Shown piece by piece: positions 26,260-41,755 of a stretch of 43,250 bases of DNA. The stretch covers positions 1 to 43,250 of the forward strand of contig JASEIO010000010.1 in NCBI GenBank assembly GCA_030017475.1, written 5' to 3'. The stretch's first letter is position 1. Each line of letters opens with the position of its first letter. Below the pieces are notes generated by a model. It saw only the letters and a program-made list of their open reading frames with translations. It had not been told where the DNA came from and made no database searches. This stretch comes from a bacterium. GTDB taxonomy: Bacteria; UBA9089; JASEIO01. Position numbers and translations under genes: made by a program.

Positions 26260-26661
26260 ATGGTGAAATATAGGAATCCAATACCAACAGTTGATATTAT
26301 TATTGAGTTAGAAGAGGGGATTGTGTTGATTAAAAGGAAGAATCCACCCTATGGATGGGCGATTCCTGGTGGATTTGTCGATTATGGGGAGTCATTAGAA
26401 GAGGCAGCAAAGCGTGAAGCAAAAGAGGAGACAGGATTGGATATAAGATTAATTACTCAACTTCATACCTATTCTGACCCCAAAAGGGATCCTCGATTCC
26501 ATACCATTTCCACGGTTTTTATTGCTAAAGCGAATGGTGTACCTATGGCTTCATCAGATGCAAAAGAAGTAAAAGTATTTGATCTAAGTAACCTTCCAAA
26601 ACGCCTTGCCTTTGATCACAAAAATATCCTTCAAGATTATCTAAGATATAAATTTGGCTAA
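26260..26661 (+). CDS. Nudix hydrolase
   Basis: This 133-residue single-domain protein carries a complete Nudix box, [22 protein letters not shown] (positions about 38-60; pattern Gx5Ex7REUxEExGU satisfied), which binds the metal that activates water for nucleoside diphosphate-X cleavage. The small size and [16 protein letters not shown] sequence suggest an ADP-ribose or NUDT1-like pyrophosphatase, but the substrate cannot be fixed. There is no clear ribosome binding site. Its stop codon is part of the -35 region of the next promoter. Confidence 0.9.
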
Positions 26662-26686
26662 AGTTGGGAAATAAATTTGTCGATAT
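26659..26686 (+). promoter_or_regulatory. Sigma-28-like promoter of the first FlgM-like gene
   Basis: TAAA at 26659-26662, 16 bases, then GTCGATAT at 26679-26686. The sigma-28/sigma-D consensus is TAAA-N15-GCCGATAA (or -GATAT), so seven of eight -10 bases match the sigma-D form. The same arrangement, with the same extended GCTAAAG and the same spacing, stands before the second FlgM-like gene. Confidence 0.65.
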
Positions 26687-26746: not shown

Positions 26747-27199
26747 ATGGAGTTAGTGAGAGATGTTGGGGATCAGATAAGGTCATATGAACCTTTTCAT
26801 AAGGATAAAGAACCTAAAGAAAAACCAGTTGTTCCATTTGAAAAGGTGTTTTTAAAACCTGGAAGGGTAGAAAGAAAGGGTGTAACTTCTGAAGCTGAAA
26901 TAGAGGTTTTAAGGGGTCAAGATATCGATTCGGTAACTATTTCTCGGGAAGCAAAGGTTGCCTATGAGTTTGAAAGGATAGTTAGAATTATAAGAAGAAC
27001 CCCTGATGTTCGACATGAAAGATTGGCGCAACTAAGGGAGAAGATGAAAGATGGCACCTTAGTTATAAAAAAGGTGATTGAGGCAGTTGCTGAGAGGTTG
27101 AGAAATAGATTAATGGACAAAAAGGAAGAGAGTGGTATGGACCTTTTAATACCACCTGAATCTACTGCAAATGCAATTGCTGATTGGCTAGTAGGATAA
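26747..27199 (+). CDS. FlgM-like anti-sigma-28 factor, long form
   Basis: The 150-residue protein contains, from about residue 60 to 120, a match to the FlgM pattern: DSVTISREA, a helix, then TPDVRHERLAQLREKMKDGT and a final helix with AVAERL. FlgM proteins bind and inhibit the flagellar sigma factor sigma-28. The first 55 residues (proline- and charge-rich, probably disordered) and the last 30 are extra compared with a usual FlgM of about 90-100 residues. It is preceded by a sigma-28-like promoter, as are many flgM genes. No flagellar gene is nearby. Family assignment is by pattern, so moderate. Confidence 0.7.
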   Translation: MELVRDVGDQIRSYEPFHKDKEPKEKPVVPFEKVFLKPGRVERKGVTSEAEIEVLRGQDIDSVTISREAKVAYEFERIVRIIRRTPDVRHERLAQLREKMKDGTLVIKKVIEAVAERLRNRLMDKKEESGMDLLIPPESTANAIADWLVG

Positions 27200-27215: not shown

Positions 27216-27243
27216 TAAAGTTTTTTTGATATTTTGTCGATAT
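27216..27243 (+). promoter_or_regulatory. Sigma-28-like promoter of the second FlgM-like gene
   Basis: TAAA at 27216-27219, 16 bases, then GTCGATAT at 27236-27243. It shares GCTAAAG, spacing and -10 box with the promoter at 26659, while the spacer sequences differ, which argues that the boxes are conserved for function. Confidence 0.65.
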
Positions 27244-27266: not shown

Positions 27267-27554
27267 ATGGTAATTAGGCCGATTTCAGAAATAGCAAACT
27301 CCTTAAATCCACAGAATGTAGCAAAAAGAGAAAAGGTAAAGGGAGAAAGTGTTGGAAGGGATAAGGTAGATATCTCTTCAGAAGGAAGGATATTACATCA
27401 GGTTCAACAAGCCTCAAATATTGTTTCCGAGGCTCCTGATATTAGAGTAGAAAAGGTCGAAGAAGCAAGAGAAAGGCTAACCACAAGTTATTATTTACAG
27501 CGACAAATAGTTGAGCGTATTGCGGAGCGTATTGCTAAGGCTTTAGGTTTCTGA
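27267..27554 (+). CDS. FlgM-like anti-sigma-28 factor, short form
   Basis: The 95-residue protein has the usual FlgM size. It shows the family order: N-terminal IRPISEIAN, a linker, DKVDISSEGR at about 33-42, a helix, APDIRVEKVEEARERL at about 56-71 and a C-terminal helix VERIAERIAKAL. It is a paralogue of the gene just upstream (same motif order, low identity). The usual glycine after the EEARERL helix is replaced by TTSYYLQRQ. It probably binds a sigma-28-type factor encoded elsewhere. A strong terminator follows. Confidence 0.72.
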   Translation: MVIRPISEIANSLNPQNVAKREKVKGESVGRDKVDISSEGRILHQVQQASNIVSEAPDIRVEKVEEARERLTTSYYLQRQIVERIAERIAKALGF

Positions 27555-27758: not shown

Positions 27759-28985
27759 ATGGAAAAAAGAAGGGAACCAAGCCTTGAGGAAATTGAGGCA
27801 CTTATAGAAAAAGGGAAAGAGGAAGGATTTGTTACCTATTCTGAAATTGAGGAGATATTTACTCCTCTATCCATATGGCATCCACATTTAGAAGATCTAT
27901 TTTCAAGACTTGAAGAGAGAAATATTGAAGTTATTGAAGAAGAGCCTATAGGAAAGGTAATTGAAGGAAAAGAAGTGGTTAAGGACTCAGTTAGGGCTTA
28001 TTTAGAAGAAATTGGACAAATCCCTTTGTTAACTCATGAACAAGAGGTAGAGATAGCTAAAAAGATAGAAAGATTACAATCAAAAATTAGAGATATAGAA
28101 GTAAAGTTTGGGGTTTCTACGAGTAAATTAAAACGGTTATTCAAAGGATGGAGAGATAAAAATATAAAAAAGGAAGCTTTTCCCAAGGCTTTACAAGGCA
28201 TTACGGAAGAGGAAATTCAACATATTATTCAGGAAATTGATCGCTTGCATGATGAAGTTTCGAAAAATAAGCAACGCTTTGTGGAGGCAAATCTAAGATT
28301 AGTAATTAAGGTAGCCAAAAAGTATGCAAATCAAGGGCTTCCCTTCTTAGACTTAATTAATGAAGGAAATATAGGACTAATGAGGGCTGTAGATAAATTT
28401 GACTACAAACAGGGTTATAAATTTTCAACCTATGCGATTTGGTGGATTAAACATGCTATAACCCGTGCAATAGCTGAAAAGGCAAGGACTATTCGGGTGC
28501 CAGTATATATATTAGAAGTAATAAGTAAGTTTATAAAGATTACGCGAAACCTGGTTCAGGAATTAGGAAGAGAGCCTCGCCTTTCTGAAATTGCAGAAAG
28601 GATGAAGATGGATGTTGCTAAAATTATTGAGATCGCTAATGTGGTTAAGGAACCTGATTCCTTAGAATCACCTGTTGGAGAAGAAGGAAATATTCAACTT
28701 GGGGATTTAATTGAGGATAAAAAAATCTTATCTCCTGGTGAAATAACCTTTTTAACAATACTTAAGGAACAGATAAGTAAACTGTTAGACAGATTAAGGG
28801 AAAATGAGAAAGAGGTAATAAGATTGCGGTATGGGATAGATGGGGCTTTGCCACATACCTTAGAAGAGGTAGGAAAGGTGATGGGGCTTACCCGTGAAAG
28901 AGTGAGACAGATAGAAAGAGATGCCTTGAAAAAGCTTCGTTCTTTTAAGATTAGTAAAGAATTACATGATTTTTTGATTGAGTAG
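27759..28985 (+). CDS. rpoD: Primary RNA polymerase sigma factor (sigma-70)
   Basis: The 408-residue protein has region 1.1 (about 8-60, EIEALIEKGKEEGFVTYSEI), region 1.2 (DSVRAYLEEIGQIPLLTHEQE, about 76-96), and region 2 with NLRLVIKVAKKYANQGLPFLDLINEGNIGLMRAVDKFDY and KFSTYAIWWIKHAITRAIAEKART. It continues with region 3 and region 4 (TLEEVGKVMGLTRERVRQIERDALKKLR). All sequences are quoted in outline. The non-conserved insert between 1.2 and 2 is short, as in Gram-positive SigA. It directs housekeeping transcription; the TTGACA/TATAAT promoters in this window fit it. AGAGGAG precedes the ATG. Confidence 0.96.
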   Translation: MEKRREPSLEEIEALIEKGKEEGFVTYSEIEEIFTPLSIWHPHLEDLFSRLEERNIEVIEEEPIGKVIEGKEVVKDSVRAYLEEIGQIPLLTHEQEVEIAKKIERLQSKIRDIEVKFGVSTSKLKRLFKGWRDKNIKKEAFPKALQGITEEEIQHIIQEIDRLHDEVSKNKQRFVEANLRLVIKVAKKYANQGLPFLDLINEGNIGLMRAVDKFDYKQGYKFSTYAIWWIKHAITRAIAEKARTIRVPVYILEVISKFIKITRNLVQELGREPRLSEIAERMKMDVAKIIEIANVVKEPDSLESPVGEEGNIQLGDLIEDKKILSPGEITFLTILKEQISKLLDRLRENEKEVIRLRYGIDGALPHTLEEVGKVMGLTRERVRQIERDALKKLRSFKISKELHDFLIE

Positions 28986-31392: not shown

Positions 31393-32025
31393 TCATTTCC
31401 TATTTAGGTTTAATGCTACAGCAGCACATCCTATACCAAAAGCCAAAAATTGATAATAGCCCTTCTCTTTCTTTAGTTCAATGGTCTCCTCTTTAACCTC
31501 TCTTATCTCACGACCTATCTCATCTATTTGGGTTTTTATTATGGTTTCTTTCTGTTCAATGAGTTTATCCCTTTCAGCCACCTCTCTCTGTAATTCCCTT
31601 ACCTCATTTTGAAGTCTTGCTATCTCCTCTTCCTTTTCTCTAATAAGTGCCTCTTTGACATCCTTTAAAGTATCCAAGCTCGCTCTTAGATTTTTTACCT
31701 CTTCCTCTAGTTTAATAATTAACTCTTCCTTTTTCTTTAGAACCTCTCTTTTTACCATAATTGGTTCTGATGAAGGGATTACTAATTTCCTCCCAGGACA
31801 AATGTAGTTAGGATTTCTAATATACGTATTTCCATCATATAACCATAGCTTTGGCCAAAGCATTGGATCATGCAAAAATTTCTTTGCTAATTTGGCCAAG
31901 GAATCTCCTTTTTTTATGGTATAGATAAAATCTTCTTCATCAACTTCTAAGGCATAGGCAAAGGAAGTACTGAGGAAACTACTGATGAACATTCCTATAA
32001 TTACTAATGAGATAAATTTTCGCAT
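31393..32025 (-). CDS. Secreted LysM protein with coiled coil and C-terminal membrane segment
   Basis: The 210-residue product starts at ATG 32025, preceded by AGGAGG; the extra 11 upstream codons are rejected. A signal peptide covers about 1-25. A single LysM domain follows at about 31-83 (YTIKKGDSLAKLAKKFLHDP ... NPNYICPGRKLVIP), a peptidoglycan-binding fold. A long charged coiled coil runs from about 90 to 185, and a hydrophobic segment lies at the C-terminus (FLAFGIGCAAVALNL). It could tether the cell wall to a membrane. It is the last gene of the three-gene set with the PorV-like and Ig-repeat proteins. Confidence 0.8.
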   Translation of the reverse strand: MRKFISLVIIGMFISSFLSTSFAYALEVDEEDFIYTIKKGDSLAKLAKKFLHDPMLWPKLWLYDGNTYIRNPNYICPGRKLVIPSSEPIMVKREVLKKKEELIIKLEEEVKNLRASLDTLKDVKEALIREKEEEIARLQNEVRELQREVAERDKLIEQKETIIKTQIDEIGREIREVKEETIELKKEKGYYQFLAFGIGCAAVALNLNRK

Positions 32026-32090
32026 ATACCCCACCTCCTCTCTAACCACTGATTCCACTGACCTTTAATCATTCTGTATAATCTATAGTT

Positions 32091-32933
32091 CTAAAATTTG
32101 AATGTTGCAGATATATAATGATTATTTGGAAGGTCTTTATTTAACCTTCCAAAGGCATAGTCTAATTGCCATATCTTTTGCTTGAATCCTGTACCTACGC
32201 ATAAACCTCCATCCTTAATAGCACCAATCCTTAACGCAACCATTCCATTCCAAACATATTCTGCACCCATTCGATAGGTAATTTTAGAATCACTATCTTT
32301 ATATTTCTCTTTATTACCTATGTCTAAATCTACAATTATTTCATCATTTATCTTATAGGCACATCCCATAGTAATCGAAGTAGGTACCTTTTCATCTCTA
32401 ACCTTTGCATCTATATTTCTAATCATTAGAGCTAAGGTTAAATCCTCCAGGAAATCCGTTATTGCTCCTAAATCTAAGCCAACTCCCCAATCACTCCCTA
32501 AGGCAGAATCTAAATTTAGAAATGTTAGGTTTACCCCAATAACTGCTTTAGGATGAACTCGTTTGGCATAGGATATAGCATATATAGTCTCGTCTATATT
32601 GGTCTTCTTCGTAGGTCCAGCACCAATTCCAATTGACCCCGCCTCTAATTCAGCACCTTGATTAACTGAGGATAAACCCATATTCTTTTGAGCTAAGGCA
32701 ATATAATTAACATCAATTACCCCAAACTTATTCGCCCGCATAAATGTTCCTTCCATCTGCTTCAGGCGGAATAAACCAGCTGGATTATAATAGGTAGCGT
32801 TAACATCATCGCATACAGCAGTAAATGCACCACCCATACCAATAGCTCTTGCACCAACCCCTTCAAACTTAAATCCTGCATAAGAGGTACTGCTTAAGAC
32901 TAATAAAATAGTAATTATAAGTGCCCTTTTCAT
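32091..32933 (-). CDS. PorV/PorQ-like outer membrane beta-barrel protein
   Basis: The 280-residue product has a signal peptide (1-19, cut after SYA) and begins KFEGVGARAIGMGGAFTAV. This is followed by DDVNATYYNPAGL, the signature N-terminus of the PorV/PorQ family (related to FadL-type barrels). Alternating short beta strands run to the C-terminal aromatic residue (ATFKF), as expected for an outer membrane barrel. In Bacteroidota PorV is a type IX secretion component that escorts cargo at the outer membrane. It lies 61 bases after a giant secreted protein that carries a FlgD/T9SS-like C-terminal domain, which suggests a partner role (inference). Confidence 0.83.
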   Translation of the reverse strand: MKRALIITILLVLSSTSYAGFKFEGVGARAIGMGGAFTAVCDDVNATYYNPAGLFRLKQMEGTFMRANKFGVIDVNYIALAQKNMGLSSVNQGAELEAGSIGIGAGPTKKTNIDETIYAISYAKRVHPKAVIGVNLTFLNLDSALGSDWGVGLDLGAITDFLEDLTLALMIRNIDAKVRDEKVPTSITMGCAYKINDEIIVDLDIGNKEKYKDSDSKITYRMGAEYVWNGMVALRIGAIKDGGLCVGTGFKQKIWQLDYAFGRLNKDLPNNHYISATFKF

Positions 32934-32994: not shown

Positions 32995-35900
32995 TTATTT
33001 TACAATTCCAATAGCCTTTACCTTTGTTGCCTCCTCATTCCCTGCCACAATCTTTACCTGATATACATAGATTCCATTATCTACTATATCCCCTCGTTCG
33101 TCTTTTCCATCCCAGGAAATTTCAACGGTTCCTGGTTGTGTTGATGAAAATTTATTGATCCTTTCCCACACTAAATGTCCAATAGAGTCATATATCCGAA
33201 CCTCCATCCTTCCTTCAAGTGCTGAAGTTCGACACTGGATTGACACAAGATTCTGTCCATTAGGAGAAAATGGATTCTCTGTACAGATCACATCCGTTAG
33301 TAGTTCATCTGGATCCCTTACATCAATACCTAAGGTATATTTTGTAAAATGATCGATTTCCGCTATAACCATATCTTTCTCTTTATCTACCTTGCTTGGT
33401 ATCTTCAACCATCCATATCCATCATAGAAGAATATACCAATCTGTGACTCATCTTTAATCCCTGCCTGTTTAAACTCATCACTTTCTGGATTGTATTCCA
33501 TGGTCAATCTTACTGGTTTGCGGAAAAGTAATCCTTTTGGGGCTAATTCAAAGGTACCACCAATCGTCTTAAATCCTGTAATCTCTGGTTTATCAGTCGG
33601 TTTAACTGTAATATTAGTCTGCTTCGATAGTGCCCCTTCCGGTATCTCTAAGGTCAAACCACCATTCTTGATTGTACCACCATCTGGTCCAATTGACTTT
33701 CTCACCTCTCTTAATTGTACCAAAATCTTCTTATCCTTTATCTCCTTATTCTTGTTTCCTGCCTTATCTGTAACTATAACCGAGTATGTAATTGGCTCAG
33801 TTTGATTTAGTGGGATATCAATTACGTATGTAGCAATACCTTTTTCGATAACTCCATCTCCTGGATCCTCATCTATATCCTCAATCTCCATAGTAACTAA
33901 ATGCTCACCCTCTCTATCCTTATATCTTAAGGTTGCATCTTCAACAGAAACATTATCCGAAACCTCCACACTTATCTTTATTTGGTCACCTGCTATAGCC
34001 GTTGTTGGATTAATAAATGGTAAAGAAGATATATCAGATTCGGTTAATCTTACGGTTGGTTTATCGTTATCTGTAACACTTATATTATATAAGCGACTCA
34101 TTGATACATTACCAGCTATATCCTCTGCCTCGATATAATAATCTATTACCCCTGTATAATCCGAAGCCACCTTTAATCCCACTTCATACTGCCCTTTCCC
34201 TTTATTATAGGTCAAGTACACTGGTTGTTTTGTATCCTCTATTGCCTTATCAGGTTCATAATATAACCTAACATCCTTTACTCCATCCGAAATATTGTCC
34301 GAAACCTTACAGGTTACCACTACCTCATCTCCAGTTGTTCCAGATATGTTATACAAACCTGAAATAACTGGTGGTTCTTTATCTACGACCTTAATCTTAT
34401 AGTTTCCACTTGTTGACTCATTCTTAGATAGATCGCTTGCCCTAACATAATAATCTATATCTCCAACATAATCACTCGCTATACCTAAAGTTACCTCATA
34501 CCTTTTGGTATCAGGATTATAAACCATTGAGACTGGTGAATTGGGTGTTGCCTTATCCTTTGGTGAATATTCTAATGTGACCTTATCTATATCTCCAGTG
34601 ATATTATCAGTAACTTTTGCTTCAACTACTACCTCTTTCCCAGCTTCTACCTCTAAATCTTTTAGTTCTGTAATCTCAGGTGAAATTGTATCACCAATCG
34701 AAATCGTATGCCTTCCATCTCCAGTTGGCTCCCTTCTTTTATTCCCTGCCAAGTCCTCTGCCTCCACCCAATATCTTAAATCCCCTTTAAAATTCTTGGA
34801 GATGGTTAAATCAACCCTACCATCTCGGAATTCGACTGGGGATACAGGCTTCTCTATAGCATCACTGGGTTCATATCTCAAAACCGACTTTTTAACCCCT
34901 ATGTTATCAGTTATTGTGGCACGTATGGTTATAGTATCCCCTGTATCTGCCTTTAATGGATTATCCGAATTTAGGATTATAATAGGCTTATCATCATCCC
35001 TAACCTCTATCTCATATTCCCCTTCACCATAAGGATCCCTTATCTCATTTCCTGCCTTATCACTTGCTTTTAGATAGTAGGTTATCTTCCCAACCTTATC
35101 CTTTGCAATAGGGATCGTAGTCTTTGTCCCTCCACCCTTTTTCCCTGGAAGTTTAATCTTGACCTCAACCTCTTCTCCATCGATCGGTTTATAATAAAGG
35201 TTTGCACTCTCAAGTTCTACATTATCAGTTATCGTAGCCCGAAGTTCCACTGGATCTCCTGTTGTTGCCTCTTTAATCTCAGTAACTTTGATTATAGGTG
35301 GATCATCATCCTTAACCGAAATTTTGTAGGTTCCATCCTTTGGATCACGTGCCTCATTTTCATCCTTATCCACTGCTACGATATAATACTCTACCTCTCC
35401 TTCCTTATCCTCCATTTCTATTGTCTTTGAATATACATCATCACCCACCTTATCCATAACCAAAACAGTCTCACCGACTGCTCCTATCTTGTAATAATGT
35501 AAGGTAACCCCCTCCTCTTTTAATTCTACATTGTCTTTGACTGTAGCCTCAATCTTTACTGGATCACCAGTTGTCCCTTCGGTATCCCCCGTTGCCTTTT
35601 CTATCGTAGGTGGGGTATTATCTGAAACAATAATCTCTCTACTTTCTCTAACTGAATTGTTTGCCTCGTCCTTAACGGTTATCTCGTATTTTATCTTACC
35701 AATGAAATCCTTGGAAATCTCTAATTCAACAGTCCCCTTCATAAAATCAACTGGTTCTGGTGGAGAAACTATTGCCTCATCTGGCTCATATTGTAATGTA
35801 GCTTCCGTAATCTCTATATTGTCTTCCATAACTTGAGTAGCGATAGTAATTATATCCCCTGCCTTAGCAGTCTTTGGATTCTCATTACTCAATATCAAGG

Positions 35901-38900
35901 TAGGTTGGTCATTATCCGTAACCTTAATCTTATAGGTTCCATCTCCTGTTGGTAATCTTACCTTATTTCCACTTTCATCCTCTGCCTGGAGATAATATTC
36001 AATGGTACCCACCTTGTCCCTTGCTACTGGAATCATTATCTCTGTATTTCCATTTTGATCTAAGGTCAATGGAAGTTCCTTTTCAGTCCCATCAATGGGT
36101 GTATAAAAAAGGCTTGCCTTTTTTACCTTGATATTATCAATTATCTTAGCCGTAACCTTTTTGTCTTCACCAGTAGTCGATGATGTGTCCCCTCCACCAG
36201 TAATGATTGGTGGGTCATCATCCGTTATAGTAATAGTATATGTACCATCCTTTGGATCACGTGCCTCTTTTCCAGCCACATCTTCTGCTATGATATAATA
36301 ATTGGCCTTTCCTACCTTATCCTTATCCAATTGAATTGTTGCCTTGTAGACATCCCCTCCACTAGTAGTCATCTCTACTTTGTCTTCTTCTTTACCTATA
36401 TTGGTCCAATACAAGGTTACATTTTCTACCTCTGTATTGTCAGTAACTGTAGCCTCAATCTGTACTGGATCACCAGTTGTCCCTTCGGTATCCCCTGTTA
36501 CCTTTTCTATCGTAGGTGGTTCTGTGTCAGATACAAAAATCTCTCCTTCCTTTTCTTCTTTATTATTAGATGTATCTATAGCCACCACCTTATAATCGAT
36601 CCTTCCTCTAAAATCATCCTTTATCTTTAAATCCGCTGTACCATCCATAAAATCAACAGGTGATGCTGGTGAAACAATTCCCCCTGGAGGTCTTGTGGTA
36701 TATTCTAACCATGCCTCTTTTACCGAGATATTATCTATAAGATCGGCTTCAATAGTCACTGTACCTCCGGATTCAGCATTTGTTGGATTATTCGGAGATA
36801 AGACTATTACAGGTGGTTCATTATCATTGACTGTAACCTCATAATATCCATCACCCTTTGGAACCCTTGTCTCATTCCCTTTCAAATCTTTCACCTTTAT
36901 ATAATAAGGTATCTTTCCAATCTTATCTCGAGCTACCGAAATAGTAGCAGTAGCAGGTGAACCGAATCTAAAAGATACCTTCTCCTCTCTTCCATCAATT
37001 GGGGTATAATATAAATCTGCACCCTTTATACCGATATTATCATCTAATCTTATCTCAATCTCTACATCCTTTCCAGTATTTGTAGAAATATCTCCAGGAA
37101 CATCCTGGACCGTAGGTGGATCATTATCAGTTACCGTTATCTTATATTCACCGGATAAAGGCTCCCTTCGCTCATTATCTAATGTATCGAAAATAATTAT
37201 ATAATAAGGGATTATACCAACCTTATCAGGCGCCATTTTAATTGTCCAGGCATAAACATCATCGCCCTCTCTCTCCATCTCCTTTACAGTATCAATCTCA
37301 GCACCGATCTCCCTATAATAGATATTAACCTTTTTAATCCCAACATTATCCGTAACAGTAATACCTATCTTTACTGACTCACCTGTTGTACCAGAGGTAT
37401 CTCCAGTAACACTGGCTACCTTAGGAGGTGTTACATCAGATACGGTAATGGTCCCCTTCGCAGTCCCTATATTTCCAGCTTCATCCTTAACCGTCAATAA
37501 ATAAGTAAATTTACCTTTAAAACCGTCCTTTATCTTCAATTCGGCTGATTTCCCCATAAAATCGATCTTTCCATCCGCATCACTGACTGCATCATTATCC
37601 CAGGTTAATACCGAAGATGTAACCCCGATATTATCTGAAAAATCTCCTCTTATAGTAACCTTTTCACCAGTTCCTGCCTGAGTTGGATTAGTATCTTCAA
37701 ACCATGCCCTTGGTTCCTCATCATCTACTACATTCACTACATAATATCCGCTGCCTTTTGGATCCCTCGTTATATTACCAGCCTTATCCTTTGCCTTAAT
37801 GTAATAGGTTATTGTGCCAACCTTGTCGTTAGCAACGGGTAAGGTTGCCTTTGCAGAGGTTCCAAAGGTAAATGGTGTAGTAGTCTCTGGTTTATCAATT
37901 GGTGTATAGTGCAAGGTAGCTGTATCCAATTCAACATTATCTGTGATTTCGCAAGTTATCTCTATATCATTTCCAGTTCCAGTTGATGGAACGTCCCCTG
38001 GTTGAACATTTGTAATCTGTGGTGGGTCATTATCCGTAACCTTTATCCCATAAGACCCTTCTTTGGGTTTCCTTGCTGTAAGACCTGAATTATCTTCAGC
38101 AACTACATAATAACTAACTATCCCAACCTTATCTTCAGGCATTTCAAGCCTTATCTCGTAATAATCGCCTGAATCATTTGGCATCGTAACGATTGTCTCA
38201 TCAACCTCTCCTATCTTTTTATAATGCAGACTAACCTTTTTCACACTCATATTATCTGTAACGGTTGCACCAATCGTAATCAAATCACCTGTAGTACCCG
38301 ATATATCACCAGTTACATTCTTTATCTCAGGTGGTGTATCATCACCAATAGCAATTGTTGCAGATTCTGATGCACTATTTCCAGTGGCGTCTTCCACCTC
38401 TACTTGGTAATTAATTATCCCACTGTAATCTTTAGTTATAGTTAGATCAACTGACTTATTCATGAAATCGACAGGTGAATCTGGAAAACTTATAGCCCTA
38501 GAAGGACTCCATGTAAGACGAGCCTTCGTAACTAAAATATTATCTGAAAAGTCACCCCTTATAGTTATCTTATCCCCTGCCTGAGCAGAGGTTGGATTAG
38601 AGTCTGATAAGGAAACCTCTGGTGGAGTATTATCAGAAACCTCTATTTTATAGCTCCCAATTTTAGGATTTCTTTTCTCATTTCCACTTTCATCCCTTGC
38701 CTTCACATAATAAGTAATTACTCCAACCTTATCCTTTTTAATAGGAATATCTGCTTGCCATATATCTGATCCTTGATCCTTGGTTAAAGACAATTCAATT
38801 TCTGCTTCACCAATTGGTGTATAGAATATTGAAGCAGAATATATCCCTAAATTGTCGGTTATCGTGGCTGTAACTTTCTTGTAATCATCTTCTGTCCCGG

Positions 38901-40593
38901 CTAATATGTCCCCAGTCACATTAGTTATCTCTGGTGGGTCATTATCCTTTACTGTAATCTTATAGGTACTATCAGCAGGGTCTCTTGTCTTATTACCGGA
39001 TGTATCCTCCGCAATGATATAGTATTCCACCTCTCCAATCCTTTTGTCCTCCATAATTAAGGATTTGCTGTATACATCCCCATCTCCTTTATTTTCCATT
39101 TGAGGTACAGCCTTTTTATACTCCGTGTCTCCTATCCTCTTATACCATAAGTCAACCGAAGCTACTCTTACATTATCCGTGACTGTTGCAGATATCTCTA
39201 TAGGATCACCTGTTGTTGCCTTTGTATTACCAGTTGCATTTGAGATAACAGGGGATGTTCTATCAGCTACCACAACAGTATTATCAGTCTCTGATATCGA
39301 ATTTCCAGCGGCATCTCTAACGGTTAAGGTGTATTGAAAAGACCCAGTAAAATCATCCCTTATCTTTAATATAGCTGATTTCCCCTTGAAATCTATCCAA
39401 TCATCCGGCGCATCTATTGCATCATTTGTCCAGGTTAATATAGCCTCTGTAACTCCAATATTATCTCCAAAATCCCCTTTTATCTTTATTCTCTCTCCTG
39501 ACTCAGCCTTTGTTGGATTATCATCTGATAAAGAGACAAATGGTGGATCATTATCCGTAACCGTAACATTATATACACCATTTCCAGTTGGTAATCTTCT
39601 CTCATTACCAGCACTATCCTTTGCCTTGATATAGTAGGTGATTGTACCTACCTTATCCTTTGCTACAGGTAAAATAGCATTCCATGTGTCTCCCCCTACC
39701 CTTTTAACAAAATCTGTCTCTTTTTCTGTACCACCAATAGGTGTATAGCATAGGATAGCTCTATCTACCCCTATATTATCAGTTATAGTAGCAGAAATCT
39801 CTTCATCTTCACCAGTTGTTGCTGTTATAATATCCCCTGTTGCACCTGAGATCTTTGGTGGGTCATCATCCTTTACAGTTATCTTATATGTTTCAGTAGG
39901 TGGATCTATCGTCTCATTCCCGGCAGCATCACAAGCAATGATATAATAAGGTATCTCCCCTTCTTTATCAAATCTTGAACCTGCTAATATTAATACCCAA
40001 ACATCATCTCCTTGATCTCTCATAGGTAAATCTACATACGAAGCACCACCAATAGGAAGATAATAAACCCGAACCTCCGAAACCTTTACATTATCCTTTA
40101 TCTTTGCCCAAATCTCTAATGGATCACCAGTTGTAGCCTCAACATCACCTGTTGCCTCAGTTATAGTAGGTGGTTCATCATCATCAATGATAGTCACGGT
40201 TTGACTACAATCTTCCCAACCTGCACTCGGTGATTCAGAAACGGTAATCGTATATTCACCTATTGTAGTGTCTTTATAGTGGAAACTTATTTGGGATTCA
40301 CCACCAGCTATAGTTACAGTAGTTACTGGTGTCCATGGGTCAACACCTAAAGAAAATTCCCCGGTTTTAGAAGTCGTAGTTAAGGCAATTTTGGTATCTT
40401 TCGTAACATTAACTGGATTATTAGCTGCATCTTGAGTTTGCACAATAATATCAAAGGTTGGCTGGTTTATACAAGCGGTTCTTTGAGGTGTTATGATAGA
40501 TAGGTGATGAATCTGCGCCAATGCTATTCCCTCTATTCCCAAAACAATCCCTAAACCTAAAAATAAGGCTAAAAACTTTTTCATCATTCTCAC
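32995..40593 (-). CDS. Giant 2532-residue secreted Ig-repeat protein
   Basis: A signal peptide (1-27, ending IALAQ) is followed by an Ig-like start domain (28-142). Residues 143-1972 hold 18 Ig-like domains of about 96-105 residues. These domains form six A-B-C triads of about 305 residues. A and B types open with variants of TGDxxxTTGD, C types with SxxNPTxAxxG; all have the TDNxxV and YYIxAxDxxGN cores and DNDPP linkers. Two related domains (1973-2179) and a longer one (2180-2299) follow. Next come a ZU5-like segment (2300-2434, with GPDGGTI and IPEGALS) and a FlgD/T9SS-like C-terminal domain (2435-2532, ENPFSPNGQ ... DNGIYVYQVKI). It is likely a surface stalk or adhesin. Most domains are rich in Asp and probably bind calcium (inference). 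Confidence 0.9.
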   Translation of the reverse strand: MRMMKKFLALFLGLGIVLGIEGIALAQIHHLSIITPQRTACINQPTFDIIVQTQDAANNPVNVTKDTKIALTTTSKTGEFSLGVDPWTPVTTVTIAGGESQISFHYKDTTIGEYTITVSESPSAGWEDCSQTVTIIDDDEPPTITEATGDVEATTGDPLEIWAKIKDNVKVSEVRVYYLPIGGASYVDLPMRDQGDDVWVLILAGSRFDKEGEIPYYIIACDAAGNETIDPPTETYKITVKDDDPPKISGATGDIITATTGEDEEISATITDNIGVDRAILCYTPIGGTEKETDFVKRVGGDTWNAILPVAKDKVGTITYYIKAKDSAGNERRLPTGNGVYNVTVTDNDPPFVSLSDDNPTKAESGERIKIKGDFGDNIGVTEAILTWTNDAIDAPDDWIDFKGKSAILKIRDDFTGSFQYTLTVRDAAGNSISETDNTVVVADRTSPVISNATGNTKATTGDPIEISATVTDNVRVASVDLWYKRIGDTEYKKAVPQMENKGDGDVYSKSLIMEDKRIGEVEYYIIAEDTSGNKTRDPADSTYKITVKDNDPPEITNVTGDILAGTEDDYKKVTATITDNLGIYSASIFYTPIGEAEIELSLTKDQGSDIWQADIPIKKDKVGVITYYVKARDESGNEKRNPKIGSYKIEVSDNTPPEVSLSDSNPTSAQAGDKITIRGDFSDNILVTKARLTWSPSRAISFPDSPVDFMNKSVDLTITKDYSGIINYQVEVEDATGNSASESATIAIGDDTPPEIKNVTGDISGTTGDLITIGATVTDNMSVKKVSLHYKKIGEVDETIVTMPNDSGDYYEIRLEMPEDKVGIVSYYVVAEDNSGLTARKPKEGSYGIKVTDNDPPQITNVQPGDVPSTGTGNDIEITCEITDNVELDTATLHYTPIDKPETTTPFTFGTSAKATLPVANDKVGTITYYIKAKDKAGNITRDPKGSGYYVVNVVDDEEPRAWFEDTNPTQAGTGEKVTIRGDFSDNIGVTSSVLTWDNDAVSDADGKIDFMGKSAELKIKDGFKGKFTYLLTVKDEAGNIGTAKGTITVSDVTPPKVASVTGDTSGTTGESVKIGITVTDNVGIKKVNIYYREIGAEIDTVKEMEREGDDVYAWTIKMAPDKVGIIPYYIIIFDTLDNERREPLSGEYKITVTDNDPPTVQDVPGDISTNTGKDVEIEIRLDDNIGIKGADLYYTPIDGREEKVSFRFGSPATATISVARDKIGKIPYYIKVKDLKGNETRVPKGDGYYEVTVNDNEPPVIVLSPNNPTNAESGGTVTIEADLIDNISVKEAWLEYTTRPPGGIVSPASPVDFMDGTADLKIKDDFRGRIDYKVVAIDTSNNKEEKEGEIFVSDTEPPTIEKVTGDTEGTTGDPVQIEATVTDNTEVENVTLYWTNIGKEEDKVEMTTSGGDVYKATIQLDKDKVGKANYYIIAEDVAGKEARDPKDGTYTITITDDDPPIITGGGDTSSTTGEDKKVTAKIIDNIKVKKASLFYTPIDGTEKELPLTLDQNGNTEIMIPVARDKVGTIEYYLQAEDESGNKVRLPTGDGTYKIKVTDNDQPTLILSNENPKTAKAGDIITIATQVMEDNIEITEATLQYEPDEAIVSPPEPVDFMKGTVELEISKDFIGKIKYEITVKDEANNSVRESREIIVSDNTPPTIEKATGDTEGTTGDPVKIEATVKDNVELKEEGVTLHYYKIGAVGETVLVMDKVGDDVYSKTIEMEDKEGEVEYYIVAVDKDENEARDPKDGTYKISVKDDDPPIIKVTEIKEATTGDPVELRATITDNVELESANLYYKPIDGEEVEVKIKLPGKKGGGTKTTIPIAKDKVGKITYYLKASDKAGNEIRDPYGEGEYEIEVRDDDKPIIILNSDNPLKADTGDTITIRATITDNIGVKKSVLRYEPSDAIEKPVSPVEFRDGRVDLTISKNFKGDLRYWVEAEDLAGNKRREPTGDGRHTISIGDTISPEITELKDLEVEAGKEVVVEAKVTDNITGDIDKVTLEYSPKDKATPNSPVSMVYNPDTKRYEVTLGIASDYVGDIDYYVRASDLSKNESTSGNYKIKVVDKEPPVISGLYNISGTTGDEVVVTCKVSDNISDGVKDVRLYYEPDKAIEDTKQPVYLTYNKGKGQYEVGLKVASDYTGVIDYYIEAEDIAGNVSMSRLYNISVTDNDKPTVRLTESDISSLPFINPTTAIAGDQIKISVEVSDNVSVEDATLRYKDREGEHLVTMEIEDIDEDPGDGVIEKGIATYVIDIPLNQTEPITYSVIVTDKAGNKNKEIKDKKILVQLREVRKSIGPDGGTIKNGGLTLEIPEGALSKQTNITVKPTDKPEITGFKTIGGTFELAPKGLLFRKPVRLTMEYNPESDEFKQAGIKDESQIGIFFYDGYGWLKIPSKVDKEKDMVIAEIDHFTKYTLGIDVRDPDELLTDVICTENPFSPNGQNLVSIQCRTSALEGRMEVRIYDSIGHLVWERINKFSSTQPGTVEISWDGKDERGDIVDNGIYVYQVKIVAGNEEATKVKAIGIVK
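34678..40167 (-). repeat. Six tandem A-B-C domain triads inside the giant gene
   Basis: The encoded residues 143-1972 repeat with a period of one domain (about 100 residues) and a stronger period of three domains (about 305 residues, about 915 bp). The triad order is never broken across six units. DNA identity is high between some units, for example 35541-35613 against 36447-36519. Confidence 0.85.
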
Positions 40594-40638
40594 TCTCCCA
40601 TTCTTTAATTTTGCTGATTGATATCAACCAATAAAAAT

Positions 40639-40754
40639 AGCTACGTTACACACACGATTATTCTCCCCTCCCAAAACTCCGCCTGTGCCTTCCTTGGCTC
40701 TTAATCCTATAGTCCAGCACAACGAATTCGGAGGAATTCGTGCTAAACGTAGCT
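40639..40754 (-). promoter_or_regulatory. Structured 5' leader of the giant-protein operon
   Basis: AGCTACGTT (40639-40647) and AACGTAGCT (40746-40754) form a perfect 9-bp stem closing a 116-base domain. Within it ACGAATTC (40722-40729) and GAATTCGT (40734-40741) form an 8-bp hairpin with a 4-base loop, extended by AGC/GCT past a 3-base bulge. On the transcribed (minus) strand the closing stem is followed by ATTTTTATT. A purine-rich unpaired stretch (GGAGTTTTGGGAGGGGAG) lies in between. It could be a riboswitch-like or attenuator RNA. It matches no riboswitch class I know by eye. Confidence 0.5.
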
Positions 40755-40781
40755 TACCTATAGACTTTCTCTTTACTTTCT

Positions 40782-40808
40782 TTATCGGCTAAAATCTGAA
40801 TAAACTTA
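40782..40808 (-). promoter_or_regulatory. Sigma-28-like promoter of the giant-protein operon
   Basis: On the minus strand TAAG (40808-40805), exactly 15 bases, then GCCGATAA (40789-40782). The -10 box and the spacing match the FliA consensus TAAA-N15-GCCGATAA, with one mismatch in the -35. It would give a leader of about 180 bases that includes the structured element. The rest of the 40594-40913 gap is AT-rich and non-coding. Confidence 0.6.
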
Positions 40809-40913
40809 AGGATAAATTACAAAAAATCCAAAAATTTTTGAAAAAAATTTCTACCTGTTTATTAGCACACCCACATTTGAAAGGTAGATGTAAACCAGTT
40901 GCAGGATACTGAA

Positions 40914-41056: not shown

Positions 41057-41755
41057 TTATTTCCCCCGGTAGGAGGAATTCCTTACATATTTACTTACTA
41101 CCTTTAGGATCTTCCCCATCTCTTCTTTGTTATAAGGCTTTATCCCCCTCAGTCCTTCATCCATTGCATTTTCTGGTAAAAATTGTTGTAAGACATATCT
41201 TTTTGCACCACTAATCTGTTTTGCTATCTCTTCCATAGCATCAACAGTCAATAAGGTTGGAACAACCGTTGTCCTAAATTCATAATCAATTCCACTATTC
41301 ATCAAGATATCGATACTCCTTTTTATATCTCCTATATCTACTTTGGAATTTGTAACCTTCCTATACCTTTCATTAAGAGGGGCCTTTATATCCACAGCTA
41401 CATAATCAATCAATTTCTTATCAATCATCTCTTTTAAACTCCTTGGATTTGTCCCATTTGTATCAATCTTTACTAAAAATCCTAAATCCTTAATCTCCTT
41501 TATAAGGCCTTGAAGCCCTGAATGGATTAGTGGTTCTCCACCAGTCACCACAACCCCATCAATCCAATCCCTTTTTTCTTTTAGATAAGAGGCTATGCGA
41601 GAAAAAGGGATTGAATCTATCTCCTCTGGATGGAATATCAATGGATGATTATAACAAAATGGACATCTTAGATTGCAATTTGGTAAGAAGATCACACACG
41701 TTATCTTCCCATCCCAATCAACTAATGAACTCTCAATAAAACCCTTTATTTCCAC
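41057..41755 (-). CDS. Anaerobic ribonucleotide reductase activase-type radical SAM protein
   Basis: The 232-residue protein has the radical SAM motif CNLRCPFC (Cys27, Cys31, Cys34), the VVVTGGEPLI segment near 68-77, DTNGTNP and VAVDIKAPL. The N-terminus MEIKGFIESSLVDWDGKITC is characteristic of the NrdG2 type (TIGR02495), which uses SAM to install the glycyl radical in class III ribonucleotide reductase. The start is GTG, overlapping the upstream thioredoxin-like gene by 10 bases. The reductase NrdD is not in the window, so an alternative glycyl-radical target is possible. Confidence 0.88.
   Translation of the reverse strand: MEIKGFIESSLVDWDGKITCVIFLPNCNLRCPFCYNHPLIFHPEEIDSIPFSRIASYLKEKRDWIDGVVVTGGEPLIHSGLQGLIKEIKDLGFLVKIDTNGTNPRSLKEMIDKKLIDYVAVDIKAPLNERYRKVTNSKVDIGDIKRSIDILMNSGIDYEFRTTVVPTLLTVDAMEEIAKQISGAKRYVLQQFLPENAMDEGLRGIKPYNKEEMGKILKVVSKYVRNSSYRGK

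Follow-up and report, generated by a model that had tools for sequence, protein, structure and literature searches.

The site at 40782..40809 on the minus strand of the window, i.e., the whole stretch of 43,250 nucleotides analysed here, is, to judge by its sequence, a genuine sigma-28-type promoter rather than a chance match. We consider it probable that this box, located before the gene of a giant secreted protein, works as a sigma-28 (FliA)-type promoter, and that a normal FliA/FlgM regulon may thereby have been extended to a subset of the cargo of the type IX secretion system (T9SS). Points against this explanation include the absence of FliA from the assembly, one mismatch in the -35 element, and a long leader.

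The first-pass annotation had described the site at 40782-40808 (minus strand) as TAAG-N15 followed by a perfect -10 element at the right spacing, and TAAGTTTATTCAGATTTTAGCCGATAA is indeed found there, 188 nt upstream of the GTG of the 2532-codon open reading frame. While this is the same site, the register given was one base off, given that the box is better written as TTAAGTTT-N12-GCCGATAA, with the -35 element at 40802-40809 and the -10 element at 40782-40789. The consensus derived genome-wide for the host is TAAAGTTT-N12-GCCGATAW, from which the giant-gene box differs by a single mismatch, in the -35 element; its -10 is, as had been claimed, a perfect match to GCCGATAW, and its spacer of 12 nt is that of the other boxes of the host. 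The TAATAG-like stretch that often trails flagellar boxes is absent from this site.

The exact box pattern is expected by chance 0.01 times per window, and when up to two mismatches to AAAGTTT-N12-GCCGATAW are allowed, three sites are found in the window against 0.31 expected, a number reached in none of 100 shuffles. These three sites are the giant-gene box and one box upstream of each of two FlgM-like genes. The giant-gene box scores 21.7 with a matrix built from 13 flagellar boxes of other genomes only, and 21.1 when 20 flagellar boxes are used for the matrix, which ranks it among the flgE, fliD, and flgM boxes, the host’s own flagellar boxes scoring between 18.6 and 27.9. The genome-wide counts were obtained by pattern search with a reversed control, together with simulated sequence, and at the score of the giant-gene box 0.00 random matches are expected per 3.28 Mb (from 15 Mb of simulated sequence). 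At three mismatches, the genome-wide counts present no clear excess over the reversed control, and such loose lists are uninformative in the host genome.

The gene behind the box (32995..40593, minus strand) encodes a predicted secreted protein of 2532 aa with a signal-like N-terminus, tandem Ig-like repeats, which suggest an adhesin, and a C-terminal FlgD_ig/CHU_C sorting-type domain. It is followed on the same strand by the envelope partners that had been proposed for it, in one operon, i.e., a PorV/PorQ-family-like outer-membrane protein of 280 aa (32091..32933; NF033709, 83.1 bits against a cut-off of 90) and a LysM-domain protein of 221 aa recognized by domain search (31393..32058). On the other side, the box is intergenic, correctly oriented, and directly behind the terminator-like hairpin (41061..41078, minus strand) with which the upstream gene nrdG2 (41057-41755) closes. 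The 5' leader predicted for the giant-gene transcript (40594..40775, minus strand) contains a long-range stem formed by GCTACGTT (40746-40753) and AACGTAGC (40640-40647) and folds more stably than its shuffles (z -3.7). It matches nothing in Rfam and is present in a single copy, which rules it out as a dispersed repeat. As a terminator precedes the box, no intrinsic terminator was found between the box and the open reading frame, and the upstream region has no sigma-70-like site above chance level, the box is the best candidate to drive the giant surface protein operon, as first proposed.

The giant protein is a likely T9SS cargo, given its C-terminus, its PorV-family-like neighbour, which remains below its cut-off, and the presence of a SprA-like protein in the genome. 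The CHU_C match reaches 30.6 bits (cut-off 27), and FlgD_ig was found with 26.7 bits in one search (cut-off 27) and above the cut-off, with 34.4 bits, in another. The SprA-like protein (a 1748-aa frame on contig C20) has 80 bits against a curated NCBI cut-off of 200, and proteins of this kind, likewise below the cut-off, are found in 19 of 19 genomes of the phylum and in none of 14 controls.

The genome-wide scan that had been suggested was run on the host genome (G000; 1.64 Mb, 111 contigs, 98.5% complete), where it returned 15 sites within one mismatch of the host consensus. Several of these boxes precede genes whose products Pfam identifies as FliS, FliD, FlgE, and an MptE/Maf-like protein, and a hook-type gene on contig C23 lies farther from its box, which carries the TTAAGTTT variant of the -35 element. 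In the window, the first FlgM-like gene (26747..27199, plus strand; 150 aa, PF04316 28.2 bits) has the box TAAAGTTGGGAAATAAATTTGTCGATAT (26659..26686) 60 nt upstream, and the second (27267..27554, plus strand; 95 aa, 29.9 bits), which also exceeds the cut-off of 25, has the box TAAAGTTTTTTTGATATTTTGTCGATAT (27216..27243) 23 nt upstream. The link drawn at first between the giant gene and the two FlgM-like genes is thus well founded, since each of them has a box of its own and would belong to the same regulon. Because boxes precede fliS, fliD, flgE, the Maf-like gene, and both FlgM-like genes, the host is predicted to carry an ordinary sigma-28/FlgM regulon, mostly flagellar, in which the anti-sigma and late flagellar genes (flgM, fliS, fliD, and flgE) stand behind the same type of box.

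The check for fliC, flhA, and fliA had a mixed outcome, given that flagellin is present, FlhA is present by half, and FliA is absent from the assembly. Together with FliS, FliD, and FlgE, the flagellin and the half of FlhA mark the host, an uncultured bacterium, as flagellated. The flagellin gene, identified by reading its sequence (619 aa; L322:1204-3400, contig C67, minus strand), is preceded by a sigma-70-like promoter (TTGACA / TATAAT) and lacks a sigma-28 box. Of FlhA, just the C-terminal half was found, as a separate frame 25 nt behind nrdD (L145:202-1206, contig C76), which may be a stand-alone domain or a misassembly. The claim that the regulon controls the giant protein rather than only flagella holds in that the giant-gene operon would be included, but most of the genes are flagellar, and what had been read as a new regulatory system is instead an extension of the normal sigma-28 regulon in a flagellated genome.

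The upstream regions were also compared in relatives, which are members of the phylum only, none of them of the host’s genus or family, so that any footprint is drawn from distant homologues. All of the 19 phylum genomes contain the exact box, which precedes FlgM-, FliD-, FlgD-, and FlgF/G-type genes, assigned by reading their N-termini. In G006, an 8363-aa homologue of the giant protein has TTAAGTTT-N12-GCCGATTA (TTAAGTTTGATCATTATTTTGCCGATTA) on its coding strand, 556 nt upstream, whereas no box was found upstream of the giant genes of G013 and G018. The upstream ends of the giant genes of G001 (contig C18), G010, G016, and G017 lie off their contigs and these genes were outside the comparison. 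The genes of G006 (L129, contig C831; 8363 codons) and G001 (L130, contig C18; at least 4063 codons) have the same Ig-like repeats, and their predicted products are among the largest bacterial proteins that these genomes encode.

Other cargo genes present the same arrangement. In the host, a second box on contig C39 is followed by a gene for a 132-aa lipoprotein-like protein and then by a smaller Ig/PEGA relative of the giant protein, and in the relatives boxes precede cargo proteins of 1423 aa (G001, contig C6; L197:14749-14776) and 1422 aa (G006, contig C886; L198:931-958), as well as, in G005 and G011, proteins with NHL repeats that exceed 2000 aa and run off the contig at the C-terminus. 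Similar cargo proteins of 1934 aa (G012, contig C55) and 1333 aa (G002, contig C70), from two families, have a box 11 nt before the ATG. Among 90 other FlgD_ig genes, which were not picked by box, five sense-strand boxes were found at a score of at least 16, with none antisense and none reversed, against about 0.14 expected from the random rate, calculated for two spacings over 82.6 kb. Three of these five boxes are weaker cases, since in two a terminator-like hairpin follows the box and the third lies in another frame. Most FlgD_ig genes have no box, and the predicted box-cargo link is recurrent in the phylum but limited to a minority of the cargo genes. A box before a 1732-aa gene of G009, at one time counted as a cargo promoter, was withdrawn because it belongs to a small RNA (sRNA) with its own terminator.

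This sRNA is part of a family found behind sigma-28-type boxes. On contig C15 of the host (L138:2770-3065, minus strand), two exact boxes precede no open reading frame, but two tandem predicted RNAs of ~110-120 nt, whose loop TTTTCCCCTCCCAG is conserved and rich in C and whose terminators are strong, and the same element is found behind a box in G005, G006, G009 (twice), G011, and G015 (further loci L080, L099, L150, L151, L162, and L202, in three families of the phylum). The core of the loop, TAG-TTTTCCCCTCCCAGTTT-CTA, hardly varies, and the pairing of the stem is kept through two-sided changes in 6 of 18 pairs, with a covariation score of 0.349 against 0.201 in shuffled alignments, none of 500 being as high. 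No Rfam family matched these loci at its gathering score except a neighbouring tRNA. Given the clear covariation and the complementarity of the loop to the flagellin ribosome-binding site GGGAGGGGTAAAAATG, a strong predicted target, the element is a candidate for a new sRNA family. A second possible sRNA lies on contig C67 (L140:4650-4843, minus strand), where a sigma-28-type box is followed ~186 nt on by a strong terminator, with no open reading frame.

The loop is also complementary to TGGGAGGGGA in the giant-gene leader (40664..40673, minus strand), at -27.6 kcal/mol, which is the best value of 121 leaders, the sRNA’s own antisense locus aside. This pairing is speculative and only a lead, because purine-rich leaders make such matches common; a general enrichment of complementarity in the sigma-28 leaders was not upheld, being modest only (at -20 kcal/mol or lower, 8 where 3.8 would be expected). 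The leaders behind the boxes of the G001 (contig C6) and G006 (contig C886) cargo genes carry GGAGGG(GG)AAAA, which is complementary to the loop.

The existence of these RNAs gives rise to another reading of the giant-gene box, which might drive a structured non-coding RNA of ~140 nt ending near AACGTAGC-TATTTTTATT, with the giant gene under another promoter and only by coincidence nearby. The leader is structured, a T-rich stretch follows its closing stem, and other exact boxes in the host and its relatives drive predicted short RNAs without an open reading frame, but the best hairpin here has only -6.1 kcal/mol and is not shaped like a terminator, while the terminator hairpins of the sRNA loci have -17 to -20 kcal/mol, and no alternative promoter-like site rises above chance, which makes this reading unlikely. 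That the box is a chance match is very improbable: although the -35 mismatch and the three-mismatch counts, barely above the reversed control, would fit it, no random match is expected per genome at the real score, the site is intergenic, correctly oriented, and directly behind a terminator, and the same TTAAGTTT variant precedes both the hook-type gene on C23 and the 8363-aa homologue.

The sigma factor that would read the boxes must also be considered, given that no FliA was found in the host assembly, where only two sigma-70-family proteins are present. One of them, an RpoD-like sigma of 408 aa with regions 1.1 to 4 (27759-28985, plus strand), adjoins both FlgM-like genes and has a His in place of the Gln of RpoD in region 2.4 (WWIKHAIT), from which it might be proposed that the host has no FliA and that this protein reads the boxes instead. 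On the other hand, its region 4.2 is RpoD-like (RERVRQIE), from which a TTGACA-type -35 would be expected, true FliA is found above the cut-off in 16 of 18 relatives of the phylum (in several directly after a FlhG-like gene), and similar sigmas of 385-438 aa in the relatives mostly have Gln and no FlgM neighbours, which makes a substitution of FliA by this protein quite improbable. The missing FliA is most likely an assembly gap, the simplest reading given that G012 and G013 have no FliA while genomes of the same genus carry it, which points to such gaps being common.

If the giant-gene box is indeed a FliA-type promoter, the course of events may be outlined by analogy with other bacteria, in which FlgM would be exported once the hook is complete, and FliA would then transcribe the late flagellar genes. 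From the giant-gene box, FliA would transcribe the structured leader of ~180 nt and the operon of the giant Ig-repeat protein, the PorV-like protein, and the LysM protein, after which the giant protein would be exported by Sec and the T9SS and retained at the cell surface. We infer in this way the transcription of the giant-gene system, its dependence on FliA, its secretion, and a role in adhesion or gliding. The extension of the sigma-28 regulon to some T9SS cargo would couple motility with surface display, such that the cell probably turns on flagellar assembly and the display of certain surface proteins at the same time. A broader proposal, which is possible and held only tentatively, is that in this phylum one switch, the flagellar sigma-28 checkpoint, serves both swimming and the T9SS display of giant surface proteins, with the tandem C-rich-loop sRNAs tuning flagellin and the giant protein post-transcriptionally; the loop would cover ribosome-binding sites, and the giant protein would be adjusted through its structured leader.

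If true, a flagellar sigma factor acting on T9SS cargo would join two machineries that are rarely studied together, and would provide a testable rule for uncultured bacteria, in which surface proteins behind a GCCGATAW box would be made when flagella are made. No precedent for T9SS cargo in a sigma-28 regulon was found in the open-access papers searched; the two that name both sigma-28 and type IX secretion do this a single time each, and to judge by their abstracts they do not deal with such a link.

One of the closest known systems is the sigma-28 (FliA) regulon of E. coli, with its TAAAGTTT and GCCGATAA elements, FlgM, and late flagellar genes, all of which it shares with the host. However, a spacer of 12 nt dominates here, in contrast to 11 nt in the E. 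coli consensus, and the host regulon would include a T9SS cargo operon, unlike that of E. coli. In Clostridioides difficile, the SigD consensus is TAAA-N13-16-GCCGATAW, FlgM is under its own SigD promoter, and non-flagellar surface proteins, the cbpA adhesin and CD0514, fall in a sigD mutant (PMC3865298). The host resembles this system in the consensus of the flagellar-type box, the FlgM-like genes behind boxes of their own, and the predicted non-flagellar surface targets, but C. difficile is Gram-positive and has no T9SS, whereas the host has an outer membrane and targets of the T9SS cargo type. In the open-access papers found, control of T9SS genes is described for Bacteroidota only, through PorXY-SigP, a system of Porphyromonas in which a sigma factor controls T9SS-related genes (PMC7712824). 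There the sigma, SigP, is of the ECF type and acts on components of the T9SS, while in the host a flagellar-type promoter stands before the cargo genes.

Finally, short RNAs from sigma-28-type promoters, like those of the host, are represented by the paralogues CjNC1 and CjNC4 of Campylobacter, in which the pairing region is conserved and a rho-independent terminator is present (PMC4626219), and by UhpU, MotR, FliX, and FlgO of E. coli (PMC10578931). This likeness is one of description, the host sRNAs being a tandem pair with the C-rich loop UUUUCCCCUCCCAG in a phylum unrelated to Campylobacter and E. coli. Given that extra-flagellar SigD targets and sigma-28-dependent sRNAs have already been described and that the mechanism is the known one of FliA and FlgM, the novelty lies in the T9SS cargo targets and not in a new regulatory system.
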